A stretch of DNA of 35,761 nt from assembly GCA_022729755.1 (NCBI GenBank), contig DZAZ01000013.1, forward strand, positions 1 to 35,761. Reading direction: 5' to 3'. How positions within the stretch are numbered: position 1 is the stretch's first letter; every line of letters begins with the position of its first letter. Position numbers and translations under genes: made by a program. This DNA is from Helicobacter cetorum (GTDB lineage: Bacteria > Campylobacterota > Campylobacteria > Campylobacterales > BB28). This document shows positions 12,597 to 20,078 of this stretch, one piece after another. The notes below the pieces were generated by a model. That model was given only the letters and a program-made list of their open reading frames with translations. It searched no databases and was not told the DNA's origin.

Positions 12597-13481
12597 TTGC
12601 TAAAAAAAGAGATAGCTATTATTGGGGCTAGCGCTTCAGGTAAAAGTGATTTGGCTATAAAAATTGCAAAAAAGATAGATGCTTATATTTTGTCACTTGA
12701 CTCGCTTAGTATTTATAAAGAGATAGATATTGTTTCTGCAAAACCAAATATTGAAGAAAAAGCCGAAATTAAGCACTTTGGAATTGATGAAATTTATCCA
12801 AATGAAGATTTTAATGTTGCAACTTTTTTTAAAATTTATCAACAAGCTAAAAAAGAAGCATCAGAAAATGATAAAAATTTAATAATAGTTGGTGGAAGCA
12901 GTTTTTATTTAAAAACAATGATAGATGGGCTTAGTGAAATAAAAATTAGTGATTTAACAAAAGAGATTGTAAAAAAAGAGATGAATAATTTAGAAAATGC
13001 TTATCAAAAATTGCAAAAAATTGATAGTGAATATGCGAAAAAACTCTATTCAAATGACAGTTATCGAATAGAAAAAGCATTAAGTATTTATTATGAGAGT
13101 GCTAAAACACCAAGTATATTTTTTAATGAAGCAAAAAAAAATGCACCACTTTCAAATATTTGCATTTATGAAATAGAGATTGATAGAGCTTTACTTAGAG
13201 AAAGAATTACAAAAAGAACTGAAAAAATGTTAAAGTTAGGCTTAATCGATGAAGTTTTTTATCTTGAAAAAAAATACACAAGAAGCCCAAATTCTATGGG
13301 AGCAATTGGCATAAAAGAAACTTTAGCATATTTTGATGGAATTTATAGCTTAAGTGAATTGAAAGAGAAAATAATCACAAATACAGCTAGACTTGCAAAA
13401 AGACAGACAACTTTCAATAAAACTCAATTTAGTAATGTGATTAGGGGGAAAGTAAGCGATTTAATGGAGTTATTTAGTTAG
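12597..13481 (+). CDS. miaA: tRNA dimethylallyltransferase
   Basis: Adds the isopentenyl group to N6 of A37 in tRNAs reading codons that begin with U. The 294-aa protein has the P-loop GASASGKS at 10-17, then SLDSLSIYKEIDIVSAKP in place of the usual DSMQVYKGLDIGTAKP, the GGSSFYLKTMIDGL loop near 100-113, and the ending GAIGIKETLAYF plus AKRQTTFNKTQF. The divergence in the second motif is mild and typical of the phylum. Start is TTG with GGAG 8 bases upstream; the nearby ATG at 12583 is out of frame. The stop overlaps the convergent pseudopilin gene by 12 bases. Confidence 0.93.
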   Translation: MLKKEIAIIGASASGKSDLAIKIAKKIDAYILSLDSLSIYKEIDIVSAKPNIEEKAEIKHFGIDEIYPNEDFNVATFFKIYQQAKKEASENDKNLIIVGGSSFYLKTMIDGLSEIKISDLTKEIVKKEMNNLENAYQKLQKIDSEYAKKLYSNDSYRIEKALSIYYESAKTPSIFFNEAKKNAPLSNICIYEIEIDRALLRERITKRTEKMLKLGLIDEVFYLEKKYTRSPNSMGAIGIKETLAYFDGIYSLSELKEKIITNTARLAKRQTTFNKTQFSNVIRGKVSDLMELFS

Positions 13482-14159
13482 AGTAAGACAATCAGCACTT
13501 GAAGTATTACAAGTAAAAGTACCATTTGTATTATTGTAAGTAAAAATTACAGTTTTAGTATTTGAAATTCGGTATTCATATGTTTCAGGCGAAAAATCTT
13601 TTTCAGTAGAACGATAACTTCCTGTTGCCATCCAACCACCATCAGAAGCACTTGAAATTATAGGTTCTTTTAAAATACCATCGAAAAGTGGAGTACCAAC
13701 AACATCATAATTTGATGATGTAACTTGTGTTTCATTCAAATCAACAGGATATCTTCCGCCTCCACAACCTCCACCACTAAGCAAATTTTGACCAGCTCTC
13801 ATATTTATTCCATTCTTTATTGCTGCCACCTGATTTTTACCTTTTGCAATATAAGCATCTTCTTTTGTGCCTATTAATTTTGGAACTGCAACACTTGCTA
13901 AAATTCCTAAAACCACAATTACAAAAACTAACTCTATCATTGTGAAAGCTTTTTTAATACCAATTTTGTTTTGTTTTTCTTCAATAAACCTCATTGTAAG
14001 TCCATATGTTGTACAGTTTTGAGTAACTTCATCTTTTAACTTTTTTATATACTCATCTACATCATCAATTTTATTAATTCTATTTTTTAATATATCTTTT
14101 TCAGAATTTTGCAACTCTTTTATAAGATTTTTTTTGTTTTTAATTTTTAGTTTTTCCAT
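13470..14159 (-). CDS. Pseudopilin with a long N-terminal extension
   Basis: The type IV pilin/type II secretion N-terminal signature KKAFTMIELVFVIVVLGIL is present, but it begins about 70 residues into the protein. The probable cleavage is A71|F72 with E76 as the conserved +5 Glu. The ATG at 14159 has AAGG 8 bases upstream and follows the preceding gene's stop at once, so this start is well supported; a GTG at 14168 overlaps that stop. Residues 1-70 are lysine-rich, probably helical and cytoplasmic, and resemble nothing I recognise. In the phylum the leader is usually just MKKAF; here the Met is Ile. M56 would give a 16-residue leader, but has no clear ribosome binding site. The C-terminal part has a Gly/Cys loop (GGGCGGG) and two Cys near the end, a pseudopilin-like globular domain. 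Confidence 0.8.
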   Translation of the reverse strand: MEKLKIKNKKNLIKELQNSEKDILKNRINKIDDVDEYIKKLKDEVTQNCTTYGLTMRFIEEKQNKIGIKKAFTMIELVFVIVVLGILASVAVPKLIGTKEDAYIAKGKNQVAAIKNGINMRAGQNLLSGGGCGGGRYPVDLNETQVTSSNYDVVGTPLFDGILKEPIISSASDGGWMATGSYRSTEKDFSPETYEYRISNTKTVIFTYNNTNGTFTCNTSSADCLTLTK

Positions 14160-14164
14160 AAATG

Positions 14165-14623
14165 TCACCTTGCCACACTTTCATCAAAATTAACTCTATA
14201 TGTAATTGTTTTATTGTCTTCTTGTATATTTTGATTTAAAGCTTTTGAAAATTCATTTAAAAGTTTAAAATTACTAGATTCCAGAGTTATTAATACTCCA
14301 TTTTTATCATTTTCAATTATATGTTTTTGAAATTTAATACTTAAATCTTTATCGTTTGAATATTCTAAAAGTTCATCTTTATCTTCTATTAAATCAAAGC
14401 CCTGAAATTCAACATTATTTTTTAAATCAATATTTTGAGTTACCATATAATTTGTTTGGATATTTTGAAGTGAAGTTTGAATAGAAGAGTGAATTGAAGT
14501 AACTTTCGCATCGTCAACAACTCCTATCCATTTTTTTATTTTATCAGCCATAGCAATATATAAAAGCCCAATCACTATTAAAACTGTTAAAAATTCGATT
14601 AGTGAAAAAGCTTTTTTATTCAT
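14165..14623 (-). CDS. Pseudopilin-like protein
   Basis: A 152-aa protein with a short leader, MNKKA|FSLIEFLTVLIVIGLL, with Glu at +5 of the mature form. The rest is a mostly helical, charged periplasmic domain without cysteines. It is the middle gene of three leftward pseudopilin genes: 6 bases after the first, and its stop overlaps a possible GTG start of the third. This tight packing suggests one assembly, either a type II secretion-like pseudopilus or the competence pseudopilus; the sequence does not decide which. Confidence 0.82.
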   Translation of the reverse strand: MNKKAFSLIEFLTVLIVIGLLYIAMADKIKKWIGVVDDAKVTSIHSSIQTSLQNIQTNYMVTQNIDLKNNVEFQGFDLIEDKDELLEYSNDKDLSIKFQKHIIENDKNGVLITLESSNFKLLNEFSKALNQNIQEDNKTITYRVNFDESVAR

Positions 14624-14629
14624 ATTTCA

Positions 14630-15106
14630 TTACCAAACAATACTTGCACCTTGCATACTTATACTTTGGTCTCTGATACCCATATCATATAATGTACCAC
14701 AAACACCCGTACTTGTAGCAATTCCCTTCATATCTATAACCAAATTTGGTCCTGAAGTTGAAGTTCCAGCTACAAATAATCCAGTAGAAAGATTTGTGTC
14801 ATCTGTAATCATTATCTCAATACAACTTCCAGCAGTTGTTGTTAATTTATCTTGAATATGTGTATCTGCATTTACAACATTCCAAGTATTTGAATTTAAA
14901 GATGGTACAGCTTGAGTAATGCTAGCCTGTTTTTGAGCTAAATAAAGTGCTGGAATAGCTTGAGTAATAGTCCCAATATCACTTTTAATTCCAGAAGCCG
15001 TAGCATCATCTCTTGTTGCTGCTAATTTTGGAAGTGCAATTGAAGCTAAAATACCCAAAATAACAATCACGAAAATCAATTCAATCATAGAAAAACCACG
15101 CTTCAC
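14630..15106 (-). CDS. Type IV pilin-like/pseudopilin major subunit candidate
   Basis: A 158-aa protein with the leader MKRG|FSMIELIFVIVILGIL: Gly at -1 and Glu at +5, the best prepilin peptidase site of the three. After the membrane helix come KLAATRDDATASGIKSDIG and a Thr/Ser/Gly-rich globular domain with two Cys (SCIEI and GVCGTL), which may form a disulfide. It starts at GTG with AAGGAG 5 bases upstream; the overlapping ATG at 15108 runs out of frame. It is first in the cluster, with about 90 bases of AT-rich leader after the small gene upstream. Confidence 0.87.
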   Translation of the reverse strand: MKRGFSMIELIFVIVILGILASIALPKLAATRDDATASGIKSDIGTITQAIPALYLAQKQASITQAVPSLNSNTWNVVNADTHIQDKLTTTAGSCIEIMITDDTNLSTGLFVAGTSTSGPNLVIDMKGIATSTGVCGTLYDMGIRDQSISMQGASIVW

Positions 15107-19024: not shown

Positions 19025-19053
19025 TTGACAAATTAATTTCTTTAGGCTATAAT
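19025..19053 (+). promoter_or_regulatory. Consensus sigma-70 promoter of tRNA-Met
   Basis: TTGACA (19025-19030) and TATAAT (19048-19053), both perfect, with 17 bases between. This is the only fully consensus -35/-10 pair I saw in the window. It ends 20 bases before the tRNA, suiting a strong stable-RNA gene. Confidence 0.85.
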
Positions 19054-19292: not shown

Positions 19293-19322
19293 AAAGTTAG
19301 TTAAATCTAAAAAGGATAATTT

Positions 19323-20078
19323 ATGGATTTTGTAGTTGAAGCTATAAAAAATGCAGTAGTTGAAATAGATGAAGCTATTTTAAATTTTAATTTTTTCGAT
19401 AGTGGTTTGTTTGATGAGGCTGTGAATGAAATTATAAAAAAGCACTTTTCAAAAGTTGAAACTATCAAACACATAATTAGAAAAAAAGATAAAAAAGAGA
19501 TAAAAATTAATGAAGATGGGCAATTTATTATAACTTATATTGATATAGATGATATGGATAATACCCAAATCAATTGGAGTTTTGGTTCACTTTTTATTGT
19601 TTATAAAAATTCTATTTCAAAAGATAATATCAATGAAGTAATTTATGCTGTTTATGGACCTAGAACTGAACTTGTTGTAACAAAGGATGCACCTGAAGTT
19701 TTTATTTTAGAAAGTAATAAAACCTTTAATTCTAAAAAATTTGTAACAATACAAGAAAAAGGTAAAATTGTCTCTTTTGGAAGTTATCTTTTTACACTAG
19801 AGCCAAAATATGAAGAGTTAATTCAATCACTTATAAATGAAGAGTATAGACTTCGTCACTCTCACTCACTAATTATGGATATAAATTTTATATTTTTAAA
19901 ACACGGTGGACTTTTACTACTTGACCCTCGACGACTTGACCCAATTTTTGACCTATTTGGATTTGAATATCTATTTGAAAAAGCAGGAACAAATAAACTT
20001 GAAAACTCTATCGACAATCCCGTGTTTTTTGGCTCAAATTATGAAGTAAATAAAGTAAAAGAGTTAAGAAAAAGTTAA
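19323..20078 (+). CDS. Fructose-1,6-bisphosphatase class I homologue lacking catalytic motifs
   Basis: A 251-aa intact protein whose order of segments follows class I FBPase: HFSKVETIKHI (41-51), WSFGSLFIVYK, AVYGPRTELVVT (110-121), EKGKIVSFGS, YRLRHSHSLIMDINFIFLKHGG (175-196), FEYLFEKAG and the terminal FFGSNYEV. The metal and phosphate sites are not kept. The DPLDGSS loop reads IDIDDMD (73-79), losing the first Asp and the Gly-Ser pair; the SEE acidic pair before it reads as RKKDK; and an N-terminal segment with KLD-type ligands is missing. Activity as FBPase is thus unlikely. It may be a paralogue that became a regulator, or a slowly decaying copy, though there is no frameshift or stop. 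It has its own -10 and a good AAGGAT ribosome binding site. Confidence 0.75.
   Translation: MDFVVEAIKNAVVEIDEAILNFNFFDSGLFDEAVNEIIKKHFSKVETIKHIIRKKDKKEIKINEDGQFIITYIDIDDMDNTQINWSFGSLFIVYKNSISKDNINEVIYAVYGPRTELVVTKDAPEVFILESNKTFNSKKFVTIQEKGKIVSFGSYLFTLEPKYEELIQSLINEEYRLRHSHSLIMDINFIFLKHGGLLLLDPRRLDPIFDLFGFEYLFEKAGTNKLENSIDNPVFFGSNYEVNKVKELRKS

Follow-up and report, generated by a model that had tools for sequence, protein, structure and literature searches.

The fructose-bisphosphatase-like gene and its surroundings

The window, by which we mean the whole stretch of 35,761 nucleotides analysed here, carries a forward-strand gene (Table 1) that opens with ATG and continues for 251 codons with zero internal stops. 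It is preceded by a tRNA-Met gene and has a nitronate-monooxygenase-like gene on its other side. The sequence-only reading of this DNA had described an open frame with its own promoter and ribosome binding site. The frame and the ribosome-binding-site-like stretch both stand, but a promoter of its own is not established and was dropped, its support being not above chance (10 sites in the promoter scan vs 8.5 expected). The promoter-like site nearest the gene matches at 9/12 positions, and a perfect 12/12 promoter lies upstream of the tRNA-Met gene. Elsewhere in the window, the open reading frame list shows type IV pilin-like N-termini on three adjoining genes.

Pfam FBPase and FBPase_C (PF00316/PF18913) match the protein weakly, at 22 bits each and below cut-off, and the NCBIfam class 1 fructose-bisphosphatase (FBPase) model NF006784 scores 140 bits (E 6e-41) against a curated cut-off of 395. 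An orthologue with an open frame and 70% identity occurs in a Campylobacteraceae MAG (JADGEE, isolate BB28), the only genus mate available. When this pair was compared with canonical Campylobacterales FBPases using hhalign, the alignment spanned 248 residues with a probability of 100% and an E-value of 1e-44, so the similarity is not due to chance. Taken with the Pfam and NCBIfam matches, this alignment indicates that the entire window protein derives from FBPase, as had been proposed, and that it shares full-length fold homology with the class I family. The top single-sequence PDB matches are the sedoheptulose-1,7-bisphosphatases 7b2o (E 6e-9) and 5iz3 (E 1e-8). An AlphaFold model of the window and genus-mate pair reached a pLDDT of 33.5 and was unusable.

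Table 1. Positions of the features discussed in the window (pig FBPase numbering for the residues replaced)
Feature	Position	Strand	Basis
Class I FBPase paralogue gene, very likely catalytically dead, 251 aa	19323..20078	+	frame, profile comparison, 70% orthologue in genus mate
Ribosome-binding-site-like stretch AAAAAGGA	19310..19317	+	5' of ATG, direct sequence reading
8-residue deletion removing the loop with D68, K71 and K72	19395..19415 (approximate; ~residues 25-31)	+	alignments
R53-K54-K55 replacing S-E-E (metal ligands E97, E98)	19479..19487	+	alignment; invariant in genus mate
YIDIDDMDN (72-80) replacing YDPLDGSSL; only D76, the D121 equivalent, kept	19536..19562	+	alignment; invariant in genus mate
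R178-H-S-H-S-L183: R243 kept, Y244->H, G246->H, M248->L; 6-phosphate subsite partly kept	19854..19871	+	alignment
D210 replacing metal ligand E280	19950..19952	+	alignment
Perfect 12/12 promoter upstream of the tRNA-Met gene	19025-19053		promoter scan
Three adjoining genes whose products begin like type IV pilins (AFTMIELVFVIVVLGILAS and similar)	13470-15106	-	open reading frame list

Catalytic residues and selection

Residue numbers refer to the solved pig FBPase and were carried over via the genus mate's canonical enzyme. S-E97-E98 and Y-D118-P-L120-D121-G-S-S are intact in 47/47 canonical Campylobacterales FBPases in the alignment. At the five metal-ligand positions E97, E98, D118, D121 and E280, the window protein has K, K, I, D and D; D118 corresponds to I73 and GSS122-124 to DMD77-79. 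The sequence-only reading was therefore correct in stating that the SEE pair is gone (it is now RKK), that DPLDGSS has become IDIDDMD and that the N-terminal metal-ligand stretch is shortened, the deletion covering pig D68-K72; we would add only that the aspartate equivalent to D121 stays. Neither DPLDGSS nor the D68-D74 catalytic loop is present in its canonical form, and an aspartate is possibly left at the D74 position, where the alignment is uncertain. Among the remaining positions, the R243 equivalent is present, K274 corresponds to R in the window protein and to K in the genus mate, and neither Y244, Y264 nor the residue at Y215 has been kept. With these replacements most of the metal/1-phosphate site is missing, and the native FBPase mechanism has very likely been lost from the window protein.

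A second, canonical fbp, for which the sequence-only reading had called for a search, was found in the window's genome, where it retains both DPLDGSS and SEE and is divided between contigs C20 and C28, at their ends. The genus mate has the canonical gene whole, on C41, with matching order of the flanking genes; in this genus it sits beside mobB and metG, away from the dead copy (as we call, for short, a paralogue with its catalytic residues replaced). PFK and glycogen synthase were also found in both genomes, and PFK in the window's genome clusters with GAPDH and PGI, as well as with pyruvate kinase, by similarity and reading. The dead gene adjoins PFK or glycogen genes in neither genome. In the genus mate it starts three bases after a hydrogenase-like/ferredoxin pair, at L035:709-2969, comprising a Complex1_49kDa/NiFe-hydrogenase-like subunit gene and a ferredoxin-like gene.

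Between the window and the genus mate, the dead copy has a dN/dS of 0.28 (95% 0.19-0.40). This is clearly below 1 and falls inside the span seen for functional genes in the neighbourhood; canonical fbp gave 0.14-0.17, PFK 0.22 and the other genes compared 0.12 to 0.45. Over residues 71-91 the two proteins differ by one amino acid, while four other codons are silently changed. Because of this ratio, and because few parts of the protein are better conserved than the rewritten segments, we conclude that the gene is under constraint and not in decay: the dead FBPase gene is intact through natural selection. The window protein thus combines loss of catalytic residues with purifying selection and with an active paralogue encoded in the same genome, which lends support to the earlier suggestion of a pseudoenzyme.

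Dead FBPases elsewhere in the Campylobacterales

The window pair's own profile, run over 399 genomes of the order, gave >510 bits for the pair and <=156 for every other match. Two FBPases nevertheless occur in 11 genomes outside the window's genus, and in 11/11 one is canonical and one dead. The 11 dead copies form one well-supported clade, and their own profile scores dead copies at >=483 bits and canonical enzymes at <=276. They carry GKDKK-like residues in place of SEE, VAIDNVE-like in place of DPLDGSS and SDSL in place of SGGM, and are under strong purifying selection (dN/dS 0.08 and 0.12 in the two pairs tested). We found no description of an inactive FBPase or FBPase pseudoenzyme in openly licensed papers, nor of the dead clade. 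The window protein had no match in the plasmid collection and no relatives in the viral collections. The phage collection gave one weak match, an FBPase-like hypothetical protein with 27% identity to the window protein at PQ159902.1:32260-32796 (a Helicobacter pylori phage record), where the gene may belong to the phage as cargo or come from flanking host DNA.

Eight of the 11 dead-clade genes lie in glycogen/glycolysis clusters. In five genomes (G119, G225, G295, G356 and G374), alpha-glucan phosphorylase lies upstream, a DUF4912 protein and a GH57 branching enzyme follow, and the dead gene comes directly after the GH57 gene; the cluster also includes glycogen synthase and PFK, split around the dead gene in G295. 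Three more lie within one or two genes of PFK: immediately after it in G368 and G380, with PFK the second gene away in G367. In G011, G095 and G266, no glycogen or PFK neighbour was seen within the stretch available. The DUF4912 protein is itself conserved (~215 aa; L093:10205-10852, minus strand, between phosphorylase/PGM and GH57) and occupies the same place in the glycogen clusters with dead FBPases of G119, G225, G295 and G356. In G095, only 3-4 bases separate the dead FBPase gene from the start of the next one, which encodes a protein with an ARMT1-like damage-control phosphatase domain (L089:8790-9644).

Counting the window's genus, all 13 genomes with a dead copy carry a canonical FBPase and 11/13 carry glycogen synthase. 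PFK is present in 13/13, vs 181/399 in the order (Fisher 2.7e-5, uncorrected for relatedness). Within family f8 (46 genomes, by hand count), a dead copy occurs in 8/10 genomes with PFK vs 0/36 without it (1.7e-7, likewise uncorrected for relatedness), and 6/6 genomes with glycogen synthase carry one. Dead copy and PFK are jointly present or absent in all three f8 genera that allow comparison: G266 has both and G042 neither (g33), G119 both and G243 neither (g55), and five sisters both and G252 neither (g73). The relation is one-way, as 168/181 PFK-bearing genomes have no dead copy, some of them with glycogen synthase (e.g. G004). The restriction of dead copies to relatives carrying PFK, often inside the PFK gene cluster, suggests a control role, and the link to sugar-phosphate flux raised in the sequence-only reading gains support from dead paralogues that occur only alongside PFK and canonical FBPase.

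The dead clade and the window protein are alike in several respects: both have the class I FBPase fold, lysine for E97 and a rewritten DPLDGSS, both keep D121 and R243, and both always share their genome with canonical FBPase and PFK. In contrast to the window protein, the dead-clade proteins are ~280 aa long and lack its deletions, their replacement residues differ at most sites, and the glycogen/PFK clusters that hold most of their genes have no equivalent around the window gene. The tree puts the two groups on the same side of one branch (support 100/97, with a long-branch warning), and they stay together after 81 canonical-invariant columns are dropped (94/94, both branches long). Our first reading of this tree, common descent, was not backed by similarity or shared-residue tests and is now no more than a candidate reading. 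Against the tree, the window protein resembles the dead clade (31% identity) no more than it does canonical FBPases (33%), only 4/22 replaced columns have a residue common to both where 2.3 are expected (P 0.19), R124 and F262 are kept at positions where T and Y have become fixed in the dead clade, and the genomic contexts differ. We therefore put the chance that the window lineage and the 11-member clade lost catalysis separately, as two inventions that may differ in role, at only a little short of even.

Possible roles and comparison with known systems

Class I FBPases are tetramers. Our tentatively preferred reading, which we hold as plausible but short of even, is that the dead copy is a regulatory pseudoenzyme restraining the genuine FBPase in cells where PFK runs the opposite reaction. 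An FBPase fold no longer able to hydrolyse fructose-1,6-bisphosphate would have been retained for regulating the genuine enzyme; the dead copy would most likely bind or co-assemble with canonical FBPase subunits and lower or tune their activity during glycogen breakdown through PFK, and PFK and FBPase would be spared from cancelling each other. As the window and genus-mate genes are not beside PFK or glycogen genes, the argument from context is, for the window protein, borrowed from the dead clade, with which common origin is not established.

An unlikely alternative is that the remnant 6-phosphate subsite serves as a ligand sensor, binding fructose-6-phosphate or a related sugar phosphate, and that the target of regulation is then PFK or a glycogen enzyme and not FBPase. 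In its favour, the window pair and 11/11 dead-clade proteins retain R243, R or K stands at K274 in the pair and K in 6/11 of the clade, and three dead genes are next to or near PFK. Against it, both groups have lost Y244, Y264 and the residue aligned with Y215, and nothing sets a sensor apart from control of FBPase. We also regard as unlikely a changed enzyme, in which the new acidic stretch (D74, D76, D77 and D79, plus D210) binds metal otherwise and acts on a different phosphate ester. The window pair shares all four aspartates, which fall within six residues, the dead clade likewise has D or E at S124, and a rearranged metal site is compatible with the sequence; set against this, the window protein has lysines at E97 and E98 and isoleucine at D118, and it lacks the catalytic loop D68-K72. 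Very improbable, finally, is a recent duplicate drifting towards loss: the shortened protein on a long branch and a dN/dS about twice that of canonical fbp would suit a pseudogene-to-be, but the frame is open in two species at 70% identity, the ratio is still well below 1, and the replaced active-site segments are nearly invariant amid silent changes. The tree test likewise speaks against recent duplication within the genus: a topology that joins the dead copy to the canonical FBPase of its own genus is disfavoured (p-AU 0.03), which makes a recent duplicate unlikely.

Compared with class I FBPases, the window protein is homologous over 248 residues and keeps the D121 and R243 equivalents along with many structural glycines, whereas E97, E98, D118, the phosphate-binding segment at GSS124, Y244 and Y264 are replaced, and the D68-K72 loop and a C-terminal segment are deleted. 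The sedoheptulose-1,7-bisphosphatases 7b2o and 5iz3 keep the catalytic Asp-rich loop (fDPLDGSS), which the window protein does not. The second FBPase copies of these bacteria match class 1 FBPase along the full length yet lack the catalytic residues, so it would be wrong to score them as another gluconeogenic enzyme.

Regulatory pseudoenzymes, inactive paralogues that control their active relatives, offer a parallel to our preferred reading: here too the active site is lost, fold and constraint are retained and an active paralogue is present in the genome, with control of that paralogue as the predicted element in the window's case. How cells balance PFK against FBPase is a textbook case of metabolic control, which in known organisms relies mostly on small-molecule effectors and on covalent or redox control. 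More speculatively, and with no great likelihood in our view, Campylobacterales that burn stored glycogen via PFK may repeatedly have turned a dead FBPase into a specialised control subunit that averts futile cycling between PFK and FBPase. Such a subunit would do with a protein what small-molecule effectors otherwise do, and the window lineage would be an independent second case. Keeping a dead FBPase alongside a living one, and solely in genomes with PFK, would be a sign that a pseudoenzyme controls the PFK/FBPase step.
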